The notes: a model not told the origin generated them from the letters alone. DNA of 58,467 nucleotides from Calditrichia bacterium (GCA_026983775.1 JALSTK010000091.1:1-58467), one strand, 5' to 3'; counted from the first letter of the stretch, positions 49,428-58,467 are shown. A program made the numbers and translations.

Positions 49428-49533
49428 AACTGCTCCTGAAGATAAGAAAAATTCCTGAAAATTCCCATCTTTTCCGCAAAGAGCACTCCCACGGGAAGAA
49501 AGTTAATTGGTTTGTCATTAAAACAAATTAATC

Positions 49534-49561
49534 TTGATAATTATTAAGTATTTTGTATATT
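49534..49561 (+). promoter_or_regulatory. Candidate promoter of the first TonB-receptor gene
   Basis: TTGATA (49534-49539) and TATATT (49556-49561) with 16-base spacing predict a start near 49568, downstream of an ATG at 49553 and so favouring a start at 49580 or 49589. Confidence 0.5.
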
Positions 49562-49579
49562 TTAATACAAGACAAACAC

Positions 49580-52381
49580 ATGTTCCCAATGTTTAAATTA
49601 AAAATTGCTTTTTTGCTCATATTCTTCGGGGGAAGTGTCCTGGCCCAGAGAGGGGGGGTCCGGGGTACCGTAAAAAACGCCCAAAGTGGTATGTACCTGC
49701 CAAAAGTTATCGTCCGTCTCCAGGAAAAAAATATTTCCACACAGACGAACAACCACGGTTTTTTCTTTTTAAAAAAAATTCCCGTTGGAAAATATTACCT
49801 GATATTTCAGAAAAAAGGTTTCTATTCCCTGATCATCCCTGATGTAAGGGTGCTGGCTCATCATATAAAGCGCTTAAGTGTGGAAATGTATCCAGGAGAT
49901 GAAAAGGAGTATCTGTTCCTTGAAATCGGCGGGATCGAAGTAACGGCTCAGCGGGAACTATTGCCTGATGAACCGGAGACGGTGCACCGGATTTCCGGGG
50001 GAGAGATCAGACATATGCAAGCTAATAGTCTGGCCGATGTTCTGGAGATGATTCCCGGCAATGAAAAAACGGGTAATCTCGGTTTGAGCAAAAAGCAGAG
50101 TGTTAATCTGAGAAATTTCGGTGATCAGGCCTCCGCTTTCGGTACAAAGGTTGTGGTGGATGATGTACCGCTGACCAATAATGCCGATCTGCAAACCGGA
50201 AGCGGTGTCGGCTATGGATCAACGGTTCCGCAAACCGCGGGATGGCAATACGATTTGCGCAATGTGGTTGCCGAAAATATCGCCAAAGTGGAAGTGATGT
50301 CCGGCATATCCGGTGTGGAATACGGTGATAATTCAGCCGGTGTGATTGTCGTTAAAACCAAGATGAGAAACATTCCCAACCGTATTAAAATAAAAAATAA
50401 TCCGGATACCAGAGAAGCCAACTGGATGGGCGGTCTGCATCTGTGGAAAACGGATTTTGTCTATAATTTTAATTATGGTTATAGCGAACGTAATATCCGC
50501 ATCTCCGGAGATGAATATCATCGCCTGAGTGCCGCTTTAAAAGCATCTACCTCCTTTTTCCGTAAACAGGTTGTTTTGGATCAAAAATTTCAGTACGGAC
50601 GCAGGTTGGAAGAAAACAATTACAAAATCGACAGCACGGTAACCCGGGCCTATAATCGCGATTATCAGCTGACCTATTCCCAGATATGGCATTGGGCGCC
50701 TAATAAAGTCAGCAAGATTTACTGGCGCAACTATATTGATTTTAAGAATCGGAATAGCTGGCGACATAAGATGGAACATCGGGATTTAGGATATATTACC
50801 GATCGCGTAAGCGCCGGAACCAGGGAGGCTATTATCGCCGATCCGGTTTATTTCTCCGATGTTACTACCACCGGCAAGGAATGGAGCTTCGGGTCAAAAT
50901 TAAAGATAAGCCGCAAGGTTTTTACCGGTAATATATTACATCGTTTTTTAGGAGGTATGGAATTTCAGAAGGATGAAAACACAGGCCCCGGAAAAAGATT
51001 CAATATTTTATATCCGCCGAACGGTTCTACCCTTCGCCCCCGTTCGTTTGACGATATTCCGGGCATTGTCCAACTGGCTCTGTTTTTCGAAGATCGGATT
51101 ACAGGAAAATGGTTTTTGCCCTTTACCCTTGATGCCGGATTTCGTATCGATAGCTATAATCCCGAGAGTTTTAAACCGTTCAGGCTGTTTCAAAACAAGG
51201 ACGTGTTCCAGGCCGACCAGGGTACCTTCTTTAATCCCCGTTTCGGTTTGAAACTGCGGCCCTTCAAACGTACTCAGCTTCGCTTTAGCTATGGTAAATC
51301 ATCCAAAGCACCGGGCCTGAGCATGCTCTATCCGGAAGCGTACTATCTGGATGTGGTGGACTCGGGCCGAACAACCGTGCGCATCGAAGACGGTCGGGGA
51401 GGTTATAAAGATACGGTTGAAACGATTCCCTTGGTGAGTACCTATATCTTTGATCAATCCTCTCCTTTCCTGAAAGGATATCAGAGCACGAAATACGAGA
51501 TCGGATTCGATCAGCAGATAGGCCAGGTAGGATTGAGTATCCTGGGCTACTATCAGTTTACAGACAAGTTTCCATGGTCCATGACCGAACCTTTTATATA
51601 TCATCGCTATTTCTGGCCGCACTGGCCGCAAGAGGAAGGTAAAGAAGAAACGGAAAGTATCCTGGATCCGGGCAGGAAAAATAAAAAGGCGGCCAATCTG
51701 AGATGGACCAAAAGCAGCGGGCTGGAGTTCAGTCTACGTACCCATCGTATCCCATCTTTGAATATGCGCTTTCGGGTAAGCGCGGCATTTAATTTTTCCA
51801 AGACCGGAGAACACGATTTTCCCCTATTTGTATCCACCGGCCATACATATACCCGGGGCGATACACTTTCATCGGGATGGGTGGTTCCCCGGGATATGGA
51901 AATTCTTCCCTTTTACAACCCTTCAATCTCCTGGCATCAACGTACGGTTATAAATTATCTGGTGGATTATATTGCCCGACCGCTCGGTATCTGGCTGACT
52001 TTTAAAGCGCAACAGGTTCTATGGGACCAGAGTTTGCTCACGGCAAATAAAGAACATATCAGGCAGGCCAAAGGCTATTACGAGGAGGGGAAAATCGTTA
52101 GAATCGATGCGGAAACTTCCACACGCATGGGACTGGACAGAACTCTGAATACCCTTAATACGGAAGTAGACACCAGTAAGCCCAACAATAAATGGCTGTT
52201 CAGTATTGTAGCCAGTAAATCTCTCTTTAGCGGGGCCGAAATTTCACTCTATGTCACCAATATCCTGAATGATCCGGCTTATTATATAAATCGTTACGGC
52301 ACCTTTACCGCCCGAAATCCGGATATGTTCTGGGGCATCGCTTTCAGTACCAGGCTGGATGATTTTTTTAAGAAAAAGTGA
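49580..52381 (+). CDS. TonB-dependent outer-membrane receptor with CarboxypepD_reg-like domain (copy 1)
   Basis: About 933 aa. A signal peptide ends in VLAQ. A carboxypeptidase-regulatory-like beta-sandwich follows (about 25-110; GVRGTVKNAQSG...YLPKVIVRLQ). The TonB-box-like GGIEVTA then leads into the plug with ELLPDEPETVHRISGGEI and EVMSGISGVEYGDNSAGVIVVKT. The rest is a long beta-barrel with a C-terminal strand ending near FSTRLDDFFKKK. It is an active, TonB-energised importer of an unknown ligand. It is a paralogue of the receptor at 55246-57999 with the same domain order. The start could also be the ATG at 49589. It is followed by the DUF4876 and barrel genes. Confidence 0.88.
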   Translation: MFPMFKLKIAFLLIFFGGSVLAQRGGVRGTVKNAQSGMYLPKVIVRLQEKNISTQTNNHGFFFLKKIPVGKYYLIFQKKGFYSLIIPDVRVLAHHIKRLSVEMYPGDEKEYLFLEIGGIEVTAQRELLPDEPETVHRISGGEIRHMQANSLADVLEMIPGNEKTGNLGLSKKQSVNLRNFGDQASAFGTKVVVDDVPLTNNADLQTGSGVGYGSTVPQTAGWQYDLRNVVAENIAKVEVMSGISGVEYGDNSAGVIVVKTKMRNIPNRIKIKNNPDTREANWMGGLHLWKTDFVYNFNYGYSERNIRISGDEYHRLSAALKASTSFFRKQVVLDQKFQYGRRLEENNYKIDSTVTRAYNRDYQLTYSQIWHWAPNKVSKIYWRNYIDFKNRNSWRHKMEHRDLGYITDRVSAGTREAIIADPVYFSDVTTTGKEWSFGSKLKISRKVFTGNILHRFLGGMEFQKDENTGPGKRFNILYPPNGSTLRPRSFDDIPGIVQLALFFEDRITGKWFLPFTLDAGFRIDSYNPESFKPFRLFQNKDVFQADQGTFFNPRFGLKLRPFKRTQLRFSYGKSSKAPGLSMLYPEAYYLDVVDSGRTTVRIEDGRGGYKDTVETIPLVSTYIFDQSSPFLKGYQSTKYEIGFDQQIGQVGLSILGYYQFTDKFPWSMTEPFIYHRYFWPHWPQEEGKEETESILDPGRKNKKAANLRWTKSSGLEFSLRTHRIPSLNMRFRVSAAFNFSKTGEHDFPLFVSTGHTYTRGDTLSSGWVVPRDMEILPFYNPSISWHQRTVINYLVDYIARPLGIWLTFKAQQVLWDQSLLTANKEHIRQAKGYYEEGKIVRIDAETSTRMGLDRTLNTLNTEVDTSKPNNKWLFSIVASKSLFSGAEISLYVTNILNDPAYYINRYGTFTARNPDMFWGIAFSTRLDDFFKKK

Positions 52382-52434
52382 ATTTTACAAAATACTAAGA
52401 GGATAGCAGAGCGCACATACAGGGGAAAAGGATA

Positions 52435-53604
52435 ATGCGTATCGCGAAAAAAATTCGGATTCTGATAACCGGATTATTAATATTGATGTTTAGTTCCTGT
52501 GCCCGCCAGGCCCCTACCGAAAAAGACGGACGATTATGTCTGACCGCTATTTTTGCGGACGGCAGCGGAGTGATCGCTGTAAATGAACAATTAGGGTACG
52601 CACCGGTGGCCTATTCCCGGGTAACCCTGGAATCCAGGTTGTATAATGCAGATCCTCATACCTTTGCCCGTTATGTCGCCAAAACCGATAGTCTGGGGCG
52701 GGCCGTTTTCAGGGATATTCCGGCTGCCGATTATATAATCAGTCTGGTGAAGGATACCACTTATGTTAATCCCGAAAACGGAGCGACCAGTCAGGTTACC
52801 CTCAAAGGGCATGCCGTGGCCCATGTTTATTCGGAAAAGGTGCAATTAGATACCATCAAAACCAGTTTATCACTCCATTCCGATGTAGTCATTAACGAAG
52901 TATATTATTGTGGTCCGGTAAATCGTGCCTATTATTTCTATGATCAGTTCGTGGAACTCTACAATGCCAGTGATTCAACCAGATATCTCGATGGAATGAT
53001 TCTGTGCCGCAACCGAGCCTATCACAATCCGGCCATGGATTCTCTGGATTATATTCAGGTTATCTATGTCTATCAATTTCCCGGGGAGCCCAGGACCGGT
53101 CGAACCTATCCCATTGAACCGCATCAGTTTGTGGTTGTGGCCCAGGATGCCGCCGATCATTCGGCCTATATTGATAATGCCCTGGACTTAAGCGGAGCCG
53201 ACTGGGAATTTTATAATCCCTACGGTGGGGACCTGGATAATCCGGACGTTCCGAACGTGGTAAACGCCATTCCGGGCAATTCGACGGATTTTATGATCAA
53301 CCTGGTACACGATGCGGTTATCCTGGCGGACGGCACAGGTTATTATTATGGAGAAGTTTCATCGCACGGTTACCAGTATATCCATGTTCCGGTGAATACG
53401 GTGCTCGATGCCGTGGAATACAGTGCCAACAGTGAGAAACAGAAGGAAATTACCACCCGTCTGGATGCCGGTTTTGCCGGAGTAGGGATTGCCAAATACA
53501 GCGGGAAATCCACCGAACGCCGCAGTGCCGGATTCGATACGGATAACAGTAGCCTTGATTTTATCAACCTGGACACTCCCACACCGGGTTGGCAACATAA
53601 ATAA
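52435..53604 (+). CDS. DUF4876 lamin-tail-like lipoprotein (copy 1)
   Basis: 389 aa exported lipoprotein with signal sequence ending MFSSC (Cys22 region). The first third resembles a surface beta-sandwich (LCLTAIFADGSGVI..., VTLESRLYN, SLGRAVFRDIPAADYIISL). The rest has the lamin-tail-like/DUF4876 signature VVINEVYYCG...YYFYDQFVELYNASDSTRYLDGMIL, with DxxxxELYN and YLDG (quoted in parts). In Bacteroidota, DUF4876 genes lie beside TonB-dependent receptors and DUF6850-type barrels; a surface ligand-binding or scaffolding role is inferred, not shown. An AGGA site precedes the ATG. It lies 53 bases after the receptor and 9 bases before the barrel gene, so cotranscription is very likely. Confidence 0.85.
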   Translation: MRIAKKIRILITGLLILMFSSCARQAPTEKDGRLCLTAIFADGSGVIAVNEQLGYAPVAYSRVTLESRLYNADPHTFARYVAKTDSLGRAVFRDIPAADYIISLVKDTTYVNPENGATSQVTLKGHAVAHVYSEKVQLDTIKTSLSLHSDVVINEVYYCGPVNRAYYFYDQFVELYNASDSTRYLDGMILCRNRAYHNPAMDSLDYIQVIYVYQFPGEPRTGRTYPIEPHQFVVVAQDAADHSAYIDNALDLSGADWEFYNPYGGDLDNPDVPNVVNAIPGNSTDFMINLVHDAVILADGTGYYYGEVSSHGYQYIHVPVNTVLDAVEYSANSEKQKEITTRLDAGFAGVGIAKYSGKSTERRSAGFDTDNSSLDFINLDTPTPGWQHK

Positions 53605-53613
53605 AAGAGAAAA

Positions 53614-55077
53614 ATGAAACCAATATCTAAATTATTTCTTATTCTTGTTTGGATGGTCGCTATGGCCTTCGGCCAGGAAACAAACGGTTCTCTTGGTCAG
53701 GATCAGGGCATGAATTTAACTCTTCCCGGTCCGGATGTCCGGCTGGACCTCTATCAATTTGCCGGAAATATGGCCTGGCTAAAGCGGAGCGATCGACGGA
53801 ACTGGAGTCGTTACAGTCTGAACAGTTCGGGGTCACACGGTGATTTGAAACGCTATTGGGATGCGGACGGTGTTTATCTGAATCGAATTATTTTTTCCGG
53901 TCAGAAACATTTGGAGTCGTCGGATGTTTTTTACGGTCAAATGCAGTACAATATAAATTATTTTCAAAGAGTGAACCGATCCATTGAGCCCGAGCCTTAC
54001 GCTCTGGATCCTTTTGTTTATACCGATTCCACTCCAGGTGACTTTTTATACCGCGGGCCACAGGTTTTTGTTGCCTATAGCAGAAAGATTGCGCCTGATT
54101 TCTATCTGGGAGCATCGATCGATTACAGAATTGACCGTGGTTTAAAAGATGTTTTTACCCGGCCGGAAATTATTCACCGTTCCATTGGGGCCAGTTTCGA
54201 TCTTGCCTATTGTTTGTCGGATCAGATAAATATAGGTTTATCTCTTCGACCCTATGATGTCCGTGATATTACAAAATTGGTTGAGCAGCCGAATGGGCAG
54301 GTTCCTTTTGTTTTTCGTTACCGGGGGGAGTTCCGGTATATTTCTCTGATTTCCAAAGCGGATCGAACGGCAAAATACAGGGGATGGGAAATTCGGCCTT
54401 CCTTCAGTTATAAGGATAAAAGAAATGAGGGTGTGCTCTTTGGCGGTTATTATTATCGCTGGCAGGAGGTGTTTGACGGCGGGGCTATTCGGGTTCGTAA
54501 CGGTTATTATCAGGCTCAGCACTATTTTTTAAACGGTACCTGGCGGTTTTTCCCTGATTCCCGAAGAAGGAATCTGCTGGCTCTCGGTTACTATTTCCGC
54601 TATATCGAAGACTGGGCCAAAGAGCCGGTGGCCGGCTTTATGATCGATCAGGATTTTTACACGCTCCATCAAATAAGAATCGGTTATGCAAGAAACCTGT
54701 CTATCCTGCCCTTAAAACTGGCTACGGAAATTCATTACGGATATTTTAATCCCAGAAGAAATGATTATCTGGCGCACCGTTACCGTAAGGGAATTATTCG
54801 GAATACCGAGTACAACATGGGGCTGGACTGGCAGGCGGGCCGGGCGATTCAGTTGCGGGGAGCTATTGCGTATCAAATTTACAAAGAAGCACCCGTTTGG
54901 AACTATTTCCATGATTACAAAGGTCTGAGCGTCAGCCTTGCTTCCGCATATACATGGAACCATTTCCGGCTGGATATTCTGACCCGCTGGGGTGCAAAGA
55001 ATACCATTCAATCCACTCAATCCGTAAGATCGCGATCCGATTTGAATATCCTGCTGCAATTGGTTCATTTTTATTAA
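53614..55077 (+). CDS. DUF6850-like outer-membrane beta-barrel protein
   Basis: 487 aa. A signal peptide ends MAFGQ. It is followed by amphipathic strands rich in Tyr, Trp and Arg, such as FYGQMQYNINYFQRV, YFRYIEDWAKEP and ATEIHYGYFNPRR, with a C-terminal strand ending in LVHFY as expected for an outer-membrane barrel. There is no plug domain, so it is not a TonB receptor. The closest family by context and character is DUF6850, the usual companion of DUF4876. Function is unknown; it may form the exit or assembly partner of the receptor and lipoprotein. Confidence 0.7.
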   Translation: MKPISKLFLILVWMVAMAFGQETNGSLGQDQGMNLTLPGPDVRLDLYQFAGNMAWLKRSDRRNWSRYSLNSSGSHGDLKRYWDADGVYLNRIIFSGQKHLESSDVFYGQMQYNINYFQRVNRSIEPEPYALDPFVYTDSTPGDFLYRGPQVFVAYSRKIAPDFYLGASIDYRIDRGLKDVFTRPEIIHRSIGASFDLAYCLSDQINIGLSLRPYDVRDITKLVEQPNGQVPFVFRYRGEFRYISLISKADRTAKYRGWEIRPSFSYKDKRNEGVLFGGYYYRWQEVFDGGAIRVRNGYYQAQHYFLNGTWRFFPDSRRRNLLALGYYFRYIEDWAKEPVAGFMIDQDFYTLHQIRIGYARNLSILPLKLATEIHYGYFNPRRNDYLAHRYRKGIIRNTEYNMGLDWQAGRAIQLRGAIAYQIYKEAPVWNYFHDYKGLSVSLASAYTWNHFRLDILTRWGAKNTIQSTQSVRSRSDLNILLQLVHFY

Positions 55078-55137
55078 AAGGATAAAAAGAGTTTTTTTAA
55101 TAATAGAAGACGGTTCACAAAAATTCGTTTCTGTCTG

Positions 55138-55154
55138 CCCGATCATGTATCGGG
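55138..55154 (+). other. Short hairpin in the gap before the second receptor
   Basis: CCCGAT and ATCGGG arms flank a 5-base loop in the 168-base gap between the barrel gene and the second receptor. No T-run follows, so it is not a convincing terminator. It may be a leader structure or chance. Confidence 0.25.
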
Positions 55155-55245
55155 TAAAACGGCCCGACAAAGGGAAAAAATTTTGTTATTGTTTTTCGGA
55201 ACAGCCTTCATATGCAATTTTCGTACGAATGAGCACAGATTTTTC

Positions 55246-57999
55246 ATGAAAAAAAATATTAGTTTTGTCTTCATTCTATTTATTTGGTGCCTCTTATTTG
55301 TTCCTTTATTCGCTAAAGATAACGGATATATTGCCGGAAGGGTTCTGAGCGTAGGGAGCGACAGAGGATTACCGAAAGTTTTAGTGCGTATACAGGAACT
55401 GGACAGCTTAGTTTACAGCAATAAAGACGGATCATTTTTATTTAAAAATATTCATCCCGGAAGCTATACTCTTACTTTTATGGCACCCGGTTACGGCAAG
55501 ACGGTTTTATTAAATGTAAAGGTTGCAAAAGGACAAAGCTGGTATGATGTCATCTATTTACAGAAAAGCCTGAAAGAAGGGCGGCGATTTTATATCGGCG
55601 GGATAGAGGTAACGGCGGATCGGGAGCTTTTACCGGAAGAGCCGGCGACCACAACCAGGATTTCTTCCGGAGAAATCGAACATATTCAGGCATCAAGTCT
55701 GGGGGATATACTGGAATTAATTCCCGGTCAAAAATTTTCGAATCCCGGTCTGGAAAATGTGAAACAGATCGAGTTAAGACAATTGTCGACCACGGATGAG
55801 GCCAATCGCAATGCGGCCCTGGGTACGCAAATCCTGGTGGATGGAGTCCCCTTATCGAATAATGCCAATATGCAGATCGATACGGATCTAAATTTAGGAG
55901 GGGCTTATCGGGTTACGGCTAACTCCGGAATAGACCTCAGACAGATGCCTGCCGATAATATCAAAAGTATAGAAGTCATCCGGGGCATACCCTCGGCAAA
56001 GTATGGAGACTTGAGTGCCGGAGCCGTGGTCGTAGAAACCCAAAGCGGTTATACACCCTACCGGATAAAATATAAATACAATCCCCGGAATCATGAATAT
56101 AATGTGGCCGGTGGCTACCGTTGGACGAACCATTCGGCAAATTTTAATGTAAATTATGCCAAGAGCTTAAGAAATATACGTATTCCGGGAGATTCATACG
56201 CCAGAATCGGAGGTCAGATTAATTTTTTCTCTCACTTGTTTGAAAAAAAATTAGACTGGACCAACCGTTTCTATTATACCCGAACCCTGGATGAACAGAA
56301 AATACGGCCCGGTGATCTTTTACAGACCGTACGCTATAACCGCAATTACCAAATTCGTTTTAACACGAATTTTTTATATCGCTTTCAAAAAAAACAGAGG
56401 ATATCCGCTCTCTTTTCTGTAAACATGAATCGTCAGGATTCTTATATTAAGAGAATTGTAAGCCGGGATATCGGTGTCATTGGTACGCGATTACAGCCGG
56501 GCTTAAGCGAAGGGATTTTTGTTCAGCAATATCTTTCCAAATTATGGGTCAAAGGCCGGGCCTGGAATTTATTCGGTCAGCTGGTCTATAAAAATCAATT
56601 TTTAAGGGCCGGATTTTTCCATAAATGGGAAATCGGCTCTACTGTCCGCTACGAGTTCAATAACGGGCCGGGGCGTATCTTTGATTTAAATAAACCTCCG
56701 CGTAGTTTTGCCAATGAAGGAGACCGTCCGAGGCCTTACAGTTCTATACCTGGGTTGAACCAACTTTCGTTTTATGTCCAGGATGAACTGAGCGGACATG
56801 TCTGGCGGGATTTCTCTTTGCAATTCGGAAGCCGTCTGGATCTGTTCGGAGTGCACAGTTTCAGTAAGACGGATCACGGGACCTTCCTTAATCCACGATT
56901 GAATTTTGTGTACTATCTGACGCCGAAAACGCAGCTCCGTGCCGGCTATGGCAAGACGGCCAAATCTCCAACACTTAGTATGATCTATCCCAATCCCGTC
57001 TATTTTGATATCGTTGATTCCATGTACTACGATCCGCAAAATCCGCAGAATCGTCTCGCTATCGTCAATACGCAGGTTATCGACCGTACCAACCGGCATC
57101 TCCAGGCGTTCACTAGAGAGAAGATAGAAATGAGTCTGGACCAGCGCATTAAAGAGGTCGGTTTTTCTTTAACCTATTTTCAGGAGAAAACACGAAACGG
57201 TTTTGAGACTTCGGAATTTACACCGATTTCATTCGTAAAACATTCCTATCCCTACTGGCCGGATACGAAAATAAGCATTCCGAGCGACACGATACTTCTG
57301 GACTACAAAAGGGTAATCAACGGGGTGCAATCCCTTTCAGAAGGCTTGGAGCTGTCTGTTGTTACAAAGAAAATCCCTATGATTAATATCACTGTGAAAG
57401 TGGACGCTGCCTATCATGTCACTGAAAGTAGTTGGGGAAAAGAGCATTACCAGTATGGAGGACTGCGTCAGGTAAGTGGATTTAATGAAAAAATTATTCC
57501 TTATTGGCAGGCAACAGCCAGCAAAAGTGAGCAATTACTCATTCACTATCGATTCGATAGTACGGTCAAATCTCTGGGGTTATGGTTTACATTAAGCCTG
57601 CAGCAAATAGCCATGGAAAAAAACCGACTCACCGGATTATCCGATTCTCTGGCTCTGGGATACATCACGCAGGACGGGCAACGCCACGAAATTTCTCCGT
57701 CACAACGGGGCAGTGAAAAATATTCGGGCATTCGCAGAATCTTCGCGCAATATCAATCCACCTGGGAAAATATGCCCGATTTATGGCTGATGAATTTGCG
57801 GGTCAGCAAAGAATTATGGAAGGGCTCGGAAGTTTCTTTTTTTGTGAATAATTTATTGAATTACCGTCCGCTCTATTTAAGGAAACGTGTCCCTCCGGGT
57901 TCATTATCTTACCTTAGAAGGAATCCGGAAATTTTTTACGGAGTGGAATTAAGTACGGTTTTTGATGATTTGGTTAACTATATAAAGCGGTTTAACTAA
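55246..57999 (+). CDS. TonB-dependent outer-membrane receptor with CarboxypepD_reg-like domain (copy 2)
   Basis: 917 aa. A signal peptide (MKKNISFVFILF...PLFAK) is followed by a carboxypeptidase-regulatory-like domain (AGRVLSVGSDRGLPKVLVRIQ), the TonB-box-like GGIEVTA, and the plug with ELLPEEPATTTRISSGEI and EVIRGIPSAKYGDLSAGAVVVET. The barrel ends near VFDDLVNYIKRFN. It is clearly homologous to copy 1 over the whole length but well diverged, especially in the barrel, suggesting a different ligand. The frame is open to a TTG at 55183, but the ATG at 55246 starts the signal peptide. Its stop is directly adjacent to the next ATG (TAAATG), so it is coupled to the second DUF4876 gene. Confidence 0.9.
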   Translation: MKKNISFVFILFIWCLLFVPLFAKDNGYIAGRVLSVGSDRGLPKVLVRIQELDSLVYSNKDGSFLFKNIHPGSYTLTFMAPGYGKTVLLNVKVAKGQSWYDVIYLQKSLKEGRRFYIGGIEVTADRELLPEEPATTTRISSGEIEHIQASSLGDILELIPGQKFSNPGLENVKQIELRQLSTTDEANRNAALGTQILVDGVPLSNNANMQIDTDLNLGGAYRVTANSGIDLRQMPADNIKSIEVIRGIPSAKYGDLSAGAVVVETQSGYTPYRIKYKYNPRNHEYNVAGGYRWTNHSANFNVNYAKSLRNIRIPGDSYARIGGQINFFSHLFEKKLDWTNRFYYTRTLDEQKIRPGDLLQTVRYNRNYQIRFNTNFLYRFQKKQRISALFSVNMNRQDSYIKRIVSRDIGVIGTRLQPGLSEGIFVQQYLSKLWVKGRAWNLFGQLVYKNQFLRAGFFHKWEIGSTVRYEFNNGPGRIFDLNKPPRSFANEGDRPRPYSSIPGLNQLSFYVQDELSGHVWRDFSLQFGSRLDLFGVHSFSKTDHGTFLNPRLNFVYYLTPKTQLRAGYGKTAKSPTLSMIYPNPVYFDIVDSMYYDPQNPQNRLAIVNTQVIDRTNRHLQAFTREKIEMSLDQRIKEVGFSLTYFQEKTRNGFETSEFTPISFVKHSYPYWPDTKISIPSDTILLDYKRVINGVQSLSEGLELSVVTKKIPMINITVKVDAAYHVTESSWGKEHYQYGGLRQVSGFNEKIIPYWQATASKSEQLLIHYRFDSTVKSLGLWFTLSLQQIAMEKNRLTGLSDSLALGYITQDGQRHEISPSQRGSEKYSGIRRIFAQYQSTWENMPDLWLMNLRVSKELWKGSEVSFFVNNLLNYRPLYLRKRVPPGSLSYLRRNPEIFYGVELSTVFDDLVNYIKRFN

Positions 58000-58467
58000 A
58001 TGCAACGATTTGAAATTATCGTCATTATTTTTTTAGCATTTGTTCTTCTGCAAAAGTGTAAAAAAGAATTGACAACCGAAGGCTCCCGGCAATTTTCCAT
58101 CCGGGTTGTGACCACGGATACCAGTTTTGTAACCCGGCAAATCGGCAATACGAAGAGAGTGGCCGGAGCCGAATTGGAGCTTCATTCCGTAAACTATTCA
58201 ATTTCCTATAAGGCTGTAACCGATTCCGATGGTGTGGCTCTTATTTCAAATATCATTCCCGATATATATAATTGCAGTGCCAAGAAGGACTATTCCATGG
58301 AAATAGTTAAAGAATATATCGGACTTCAGGAGAGTATTACTTTGGTGGGAACGGTATCTTCCGTGGCTTTAAGCGATCCCGGAGATTCTTTACAGATCCT
58401 ACTGAAACCTGTTTTTGCTTCCAATCTGGTTATCAGCGAAATTTATTATAACGGTGCTTCCCCACCG
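58000..58467 (+). CDS. DUF4876 lipoprotein-like protein (copy 2, 3' truncated)
   Basis: 156 codons are visible before the window ends. It starts with a hydrophobic segment and a cysteine near residue 20 (LLQKC; the Lys before Cys is unusual for a lipobox). A beta-sandwich follows with SIRVVTTDTSF, VAGAELELHSV and VTDSDGVALISNIIPDIYN. It ends at LVISEIYYNGA, the beginning of the lamin-tail-like DUF4876 domain also seen in copy 1. It is translationally coupled to receptor copy 2. A DUF6850-type barrel is expected just beyond the right edge. Confidence 0.85.
   Translation, partial: MQRFEIIVIIFLAFVLLQKCKKELTTEGSRQFSIRVVTTDTSFVTRQIGNTKRVAGAELELHSVNYSISYKAVTDSDGVALISNIIPDIYNCSAKKDYSMEIVKEYIGLQESITLVGTVSSVALSDPGDSLQILLKPVFASNLVISEIYYNGASPP

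Follow-up and report, generated by a model that had tools for sequence, protein, structure and literature searches.

Genes at the right end of the contig

We analysed a 58,467-nucleotide stretch of DNA from a Calditrichia bacterium (family Calditrichaceae, phylum Calditrichota; GCA_026983775.1, JALSTK010000091.1:1-58467; hereafter the window), which is the whole of one contig (C91) of a 4.03-Mb genome in 179 contigs. At its right end (49.5-58.5 kb), genes for two TonB-dependent receptors (TBDRs), two lipoproteins of the DUF4876 family and a predicted outer-membrane beta-barrel protein of the DUF6850 family follow one another. Open reading frames (ORFs) were read at 49553-52381, 52435-53604, 53614-55077, 55183-57999 and 58000-58467, the last one being open at the contig end; the likely true starts of the two receptor genes are the ATG codons at 49580 and 55246. 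The genes were assigned as follows.

49580..52381, + strand: TBDR1, receptor at the start of the type 1 module, with a carboxypeptidase-regulatory-like N-terminal extension, plug and barrel (Pfam PF13620, PF07715 and PF00593 above cut-off; type-1 clade in the tree)
52435..53604, + strand: type 1 lipoprotein with DUF4876 and a lamin tail domain (LTD), lipobox ..MFSSC (PF16215, 74.7 bits; PF00932, 36.9 bits; relative of PDB 4q1z, E = 9e-14)
53614..55077, + strand: type 1 DUF6850 protein, predicted outer-membrane beta-barrel without plug (PF21012, 53.4 bits; low-confidence AF2 model)
55246..57999, + strand: TBDR2, receptor at the start of the type 2 module, with CarboxypepD_reg, plug and barrel (Pfam; type-2 clade)
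58000..58467, + strand: 5' part of the type 2 DUF4876/LTD lipoprotein gene, cut at the contig end; rest on contig C5 (L003:34-1185; 501-bp overlap)

Families were assigned by searches with profile hidden Markov models (HMMs) under the curated Pfam cut-offs (PF16215, 27.9 bits; PF00932, 34.3 bits; PF21012, 27 bits). DUF4876 exceeded its cut-off in both lipoproteins (type 2, 107 bits) and DUF6850 in both barrels (95.8 bits for the second, see below); the lamin tail domain was above the cut-off in the type 1 lipoprotein and slightly under it in type 2 (33.5 bits). The plug and barrel Pfam domains are present in both receptors. The gene layout in a preliminary description of this DNA thus agrees with the family assignments, as does its second receptor joined stop to start to a second DUF4876 gene: TAA at 57997-57999 is followed by ATG at 58000 with no base between them. 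The partial ORF at 58000-58467 ends ahead of its DUF4876 domain, and the PF16215 match needs the sequence on contig C5. The identity of TBDR1 and TBDR2 was 49% across the plug and 30% across the barrel, as expected from the proposed divergence of the barrels with conservation of the entry segments. A lipoprotein-signal cysteine lies around residue 20 in at least 80% of 27 DUF4876 homologues (type 1 lipobox, ..FSSC; type 2, ..LQKC, which is unusual).

Continuation of the cluster on a second contig

Positions 57967-58467 of the window recur at the start of contig C5 (L003 1-501) with 98% identity over 501 bp, and nowhere else in the genome. The 98% overlap suggests that variation between strains interrupted the assembly within the second DUF4876 gene. 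The join of C91 and C5 is inferred from this overlap, and is supported by the several relatives that carry type-1 and type-2 modules side by side on one contig. The genes on C5 were as follows (L003 numbering).

L003:34-1185: complete type 2 DUF4876 lipoprotein, 383 aa (PF16215, 107 bits)
L003:1217-2764: type 2 DUF6850 barrel (PF21012, 95.8 bits)
L003:2906-5545: YCF48/LTD protein with a type IX secretion system (T9SS) tail
L003:5616-7838: HEAT protein with a C25-peptidase-like N-terminal half (hereafter C25HEAT)
L003:7969-8859: ABC ATPase
L003:8868-9539: small membrane protein, taken as the ABC permease
L003:9536-10771: DUF4857 protein (310 bits)
L003:10801-12759: NapH/NosR-like 4Fe-4S polyferredoxin of the inner membrane, with an HMA-like domain

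The second DUF6850 barrel, for which the preliminary description had proposed to look beyond 58467, is therefore present. The genome contains two DUF4876 and two DUF6850 genes in total, and no copy of DUF4876, DUF6850 or DUF4857 outside the cluster. As far as the gene content indicates, the window end would be the left half of a conserved cluster of roughly 22 kb, in which two parallel three-gene outer-membrane modules are followed by inner-membrane and protease-like genes.

Conservation of gene order in three phyla

In each of the 38 modules examined, which come from three phyla, the receptor, DUF4876 and DUF6850 genes stand together, and the conserved neighbourhood that had been suspected for this trio is borne out. 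The order TBDR-DUF4876(x1-3)-DUF6850 is kept in 17/17 modules in Calditrichota and 16/16 in Fidelibacterota (Neomarinimicrobiota), 33 in total, and the three genes are linked with some reordering in five Bacteroidales loci: TBDR-DUF4876-DUF6850-C25HEAT x3 in Bacteroides finegoldii, DUF4876-DUF6850-TBDR in Parabacteroides, TBDR-small ORF-DUF6850-DUF4876-M16 in Prevotella nigrescens (with feoB nearby) and in one locus of Prevotella sp. 299, and TBDR-DUF4876-DUF6850-M16 in the other locus of that strain. Of 40 genomes from Calditrichota, 13 carry DUF4876, with DUF6850 in these 13 and no others (Fisher's test, 8e-11, phylogeny ignored), and DUF4857 occurs in 12 of these and in 2 others; among 149 Fidelibacterota genomes, DUF4876 occurs in 39 and DUF6850 in 36, all nested within those 39 (2e-31, phylogeny ignored). 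The polyferredoxin and DUF4857 are also conserved among related clusters; no Bacteroidales locus was found in a search of plasmid records for the two. A chance assembly of genes is excluded, because the family matches lie far above the curated cut-offs and the gene order is kept in dozens of genomes.

The window proteins belong by HMM to DUF4876 (PF16215) and DUF6850 (PF21012), and the type 1 lipoprotein is related to PDB 4q1z, by sequence apparently the DUF4876 protein of B. finegoldii; these families carry no assigned function and are here placed in one machine. The single outer-membrane machine of the preliminary description holds in so far as the trio is a unit; the machine itself would be larger, including the ABC pair, DUF4857, the polyferredoxin and the protease-like genes.

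Two types of module

The trees of the receptors, the lipoproteins and the barrels all split into type 1 and type 2 in parallel (SH-aLRT 87-100), and both types hold members from Calditrichota and Fidelibacterota. What had been called a duplicated module is, according to the three trees, an old duplication, the second module being an ancient distinct type. A recent tandem duplication or an assembly artefact might be suspected from the contig break within the second module and from the 98% overlap suggesting strain variation; it is extremely improbable, given that the genome carries no more than two copies each of DUF4876 and DUF6850, and was rejected on the deep split between the types across phyla.

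The two types also differ in their company. Type 1, which several genomes carry alone, is accompanied by ABC-permease-DUF4857-polyferredoxin, as in the cluster TBDR1-DUF4876-DUF6850-YCF48-ABC-permease-DUF4857-FeS of genome G001, which we take to be Caldithrix abyssi. Type 2 is accompanied by the HEAT protein, the strong matches of which in Calditrichota are confined to five genomes (G000, G011, G013, G036 and G038). Three Fidelibacterota genomes (G057, G045 and G083) carry the single run TBDR2-DUF4876-DUF6850-C25HEAT-M16-ABC-permease-DUF4857-TBDR1-DUF4876-DUF6850-YCF48, followed in G057, where the stretch extends far enough, by the polyferredoxin.

Iron link and nature of the cargo

In published iron-depletion data, the PG1019-22 operon of Porphyromonas gingivalis was up 21-214-fold, and BT3625-33 and BT1933-39 of Bacteroides thetaiotaomicron were up 37-128-fold and 3.5-7.4-fold, respectively (PMC10434189); the P. 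gingivalis lipoprotein gene changes together with hmu, the haem operon, in four further data sets (PMC10470040, PMC10101095, PMC12119571, PMC5807917). All three loci have DUF4876 and a TonB receptor. From BT3633 to BT3625 the published table gives TBDR, DUF4876, DUF4876, one gene, PepSY, PepSY, ABC ATPase, a hypothetical protein and DUF4857 (PMC10434189). By comparison with this table, the order is collinear with the type-1 clusters, including the ABC ATPase and DUF4857, with the hypothetical protein in the permease's place and the PepSY proteins where the cluster described here has the polyferredoxin. Where the barrel would stand, the table has BT3630, which is annotated as a fimbrillin (PMC10434189) and may or may not be a barrel. 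BT1933-39 carries HEAT, as does the B. finegoldii locus. In Bacteroides these iron loci are separate, whereas the two modules form one combined cluster here.

The preliminary description had left the cargo blank. Since the Bacteroidales homologues rank among the genes most strongly induced by iron depletion, iron is the best-supported element of the cargo, and the cluster is probably, on the analysis of these homologues, a two-module iron-acquisition system, the cargo form of which may be a chelate, haem or an iron protein. It would be a new and larger arrangement of a known scheme, TonB-dependent uptake with a partner lipoprotein. By gene content the cluster is not a Sus/polysaccharide utilization locus (PUL) system, in agreement with the preliminary description, which had set it apart from Sus/PUL and haem loci: there were no SusD-like proteins or glycan enzymes among the scanned module, flanking-window and C5 proteins (not every window gene being scanned), the scores for siderophore and haem models fell short, and Slam gave no match.

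Several points weigh against the iron-acquisition system. The iron response was measured in Bacteroidales and would be carried to Calditrichota by homology across phyla. Moreover, BT3625-33 and BT1933-39 were putatively assigned to type 1 and type 2, respectively, by neighbouring genes and not by the trees, from which the type is unreadable because the Bacteroidales sequences make up a clade of their own with long branches. In similarity the ABC ATPase is closest to ABC-2/exporter types (PmtA, DrrA, GldA), and the cluster showed no periplasmic binding protein; the ABC unit is therefore not a classic iron importer. The NCBIfam siderophore and haem receptor models (TIGR01783, TIGR01785) gave 22-33 bits against cut-offs of 223-317. 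Finally, one possible regulatory element lies ahead of TBDR1:

49533..49548, no strand assigned: 16-bp imperfect palindrome CTTGATAATTATTAAG, candidate operator, overlapping the -35 element of a promoter-like site (49534-49561)

It matches the Escherichia coli Fur box at 13/19 positions with a shuffle p of about 0.1, so that the likeness is not significant alone, and a Fur-box search over 16 upstream regions gave no consistent signal.

Proposed mechanism

Under iron starvation, DUF4876 and the T9SS propeller/LTD protein would catch an iron carrier at the cell surface; the receptor, energised by TonB, would import the carrier or its iron; and the cargo might then be cut by proteolysis, as an optional step. 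An inner-membrane part (the polyferredoxin here, the PepSY proteins in Bacteroides) would reduce or free the iron, which would be taken up or handled by, or with, the ABC/DUF4857 unit. A PDB profile search with DUF4857 gave no match. The NapH-like polyferredoxin suggests a reductive step; PepSY proteins serve elsewhere as ferri-siderophore reductases. DUF6850 would act as a dedicated outer-membrane partner of the lipoprotein. With two receptor types, there would be two different carriers or one carrier in two forms, and the earlier proposal of two ligands handled by one scheme would fit with this.

The DUF4876 lipoprotein is probably surface-exposed, as had been proposed. In Fidelibacterota genome G070 (L072:1135-6822, contig C15), LTD and DUF4876 lie inside a 1895-aa protein with a T9SS-type C-terminal tail and no receptor beside it. 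Because T9SS cargo is extracellular, this protein and the YCF48/LTD protein of the cluster, which also has a T9SS tail, indicate that the fold works outside the cell.

On the proposed mechanism, three domains of unknown function (DUF4876, DUF6850 and DUF4857) and a HEAT/C25-like protein that had no annotation would be tied into one conserved machine in at least three phyla. For PG1019-22 of a mouth pathogen and BT3625-33 of a gut commensal, which are among their most iron-regulated loci, this would provide a likely architecture and a mechanism open to testing.

Protease-like genes beside the modules

In the N-terminal half of C25HEAT, the motifs HxHG, FDxCxNG and GDPT are invariant in 7/7 aligned sequences, and together with the GD and SDRxYxD blocks they stand in the order of C25 peptidases. 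A C25HEAT profile aligned along the catalytic domain of five C25 proteins of the same genome (probability, 67%; single-template E = 5e-5), with the catalytic His unaligned. The Pfam C25 model (PF01364) gave no match to C25HEAT even at E = 5, a PDB profile search matched the HEAT repeats alone, and the AF2 model (pLDDT 36 from two sequences) was not used; we regard the HEAT protein as putatively C25-like. C25HEAT comes after the type-2 modules in the two phyla Calditrichota and Fidelibacterota, and in B. finegoldii it likewise follows the module. True M16 peptidases adjoin modules in Fidelibacterota, in P. nigrescens, at both loci of Prevotella sp. 299 and in Calditrichota genome G036; no such gene was seen next to the module of the window's genome, and many type-1 clusters have neither C25HEAT nor M16.

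Alternative explanations

It is quite unlikely that the cargo is something other than iron, such as a different metal, a cofactor or a peptide, and that the iron response in the relatives is indirect. The exporter-type ABC, the NosR/NapH-like polyferredoxin and the HMA-like domain do recall copper or nitrous-oxide reductase maturation, and PG1019 also shifts in zinc-related work on a mutant of an RNA-binding protein (PMC12119571), but the same genes top the iron-depletion lists in two genera, moving with hmu, and no nosZ or other metalloenzyme was found on the C5 stretches scanned. Uptake of B12 was considered and dropped, because no riboswitch was found with Rfam in the window or in 17 loci, so that nothing speaks for B12 or thiamine. 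Protease-associated import is a special case of the iron-acquisition system, in which an iron-bearing protein or peptide would be imported and cut by a periplasmic M16 or C25HEAT, as with FusA/FusC and ferredoxin (PMC6071955, PMC6793856). The M16 genes beside modules in several lineages, the C25HEAT genes next to modules with their catalytic-type motifs kept, and the C25HEAT profile match to C25 peptidases of the genome favour this form. In some relatives the TonB receptor gene is linked to a protease gene and to iron limitation, which is shared with FusA-FusC and YddB-PqqL. We hold it to be unlikely, given the many type-1 clusters, that of C. abyssi included, with no protease at the locus, the lack of M16 beside the module in the window's genome, and a C25HEAT with no Pfam C25 match and an unusable fold model. 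Fus clusters were described in Proteobacteria, and Fus-type features are seen here only at some homologous loci. Depending on the lineage, there is a C25-like protease, an M16 peptidase or neither, and a lipoprotein and a second barrel are added. The most far-reaching version would be piracy of iron proteins or peptides outside Proteobacteria, with the two modules and the T9SS capture protein feeding periplasmic HEAT-C25 and M16 proteases, the polyferredoxin releasing the iron reductively, and DUF6850 representing a new class of surface-lipoprotein translocon; we regard it as speculative and rather improbable.

The remaining question concerns the barrel. DUF4876 and DUF6850 remain adjacent in Parabacteroides and Prevotella, where the receptor position shifts; because DUF6850 stays beside DUF4876 though the receptor moves, it is more likely to serve the lipoprotein as a partner, either translocon or anchor, than to form a second pore for import. 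A Slam-like translocon, bringing the DUF4876 lipoprotein to the cell surface and lying outside the import path, could account for this linkage, the tightest within the trio, and for a single barrel serving up to three DUF4876 copies (L073), and Slam barrels export surface lipoproteins of iron systems (PMC9090332, PMC5449769). The TbpA-TbpB system with Slam likewise links a TonB receptor, a surface lipoprotein and a second barrel; homology to Slam was not detected. DUF6850 was the sole family over the cut-off, with no Slam/DUF560 match, the protein has no N-terminal periplasmic domain, and its AF2 model (about 18 strands, no plug; pLDDT 56, low confidence) gave generic barrels only with Foldseek (TM 0.2-0.4). 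Bacteroidota also have other surface routes for lipoproteins, and on balance the Slam-like role is a minor possibility. The iron-acquisition system with a partner lipoprotein has parallels in Bacteroidota in HmuR-HmuY, XusA-XusB and BtuB-BtuG, which likewise pair a TonB receptor with a lipoprotein; the lipoproteins belong to families other than DUF4876, and these systems are not known to have a companion barrel.

Flanking genes and minor observations

Housekeeping genes (rho, DUF1385 and prfA) and genes for two small membrane proteins lie upstream of TBDR1, and a diacylglycerol-kinase-like gene lies after the polyferredoxin on C5. The HMA-like domain of the polyferredoxin (L003:10801-12759) has a single conserved cysteine (Cys363) where CxxC is expected. 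The DUF6850 frame is interrupted in three Calditrichota genomes (L036:8156-9625, L047:2437-3705 and L046:251-1518), by pseudogene formation or assembly error. Three tandem type-1 DUF4876 genes with one barrel and one receptor were found in Fidelibacterota genome G070 (L073:13069-19999, contig C94), and three tandem C25HEAT paralogues, two of which are annotated as hypothetical, follow DUF6850 in B. finegoldii (L052:14688-21265).

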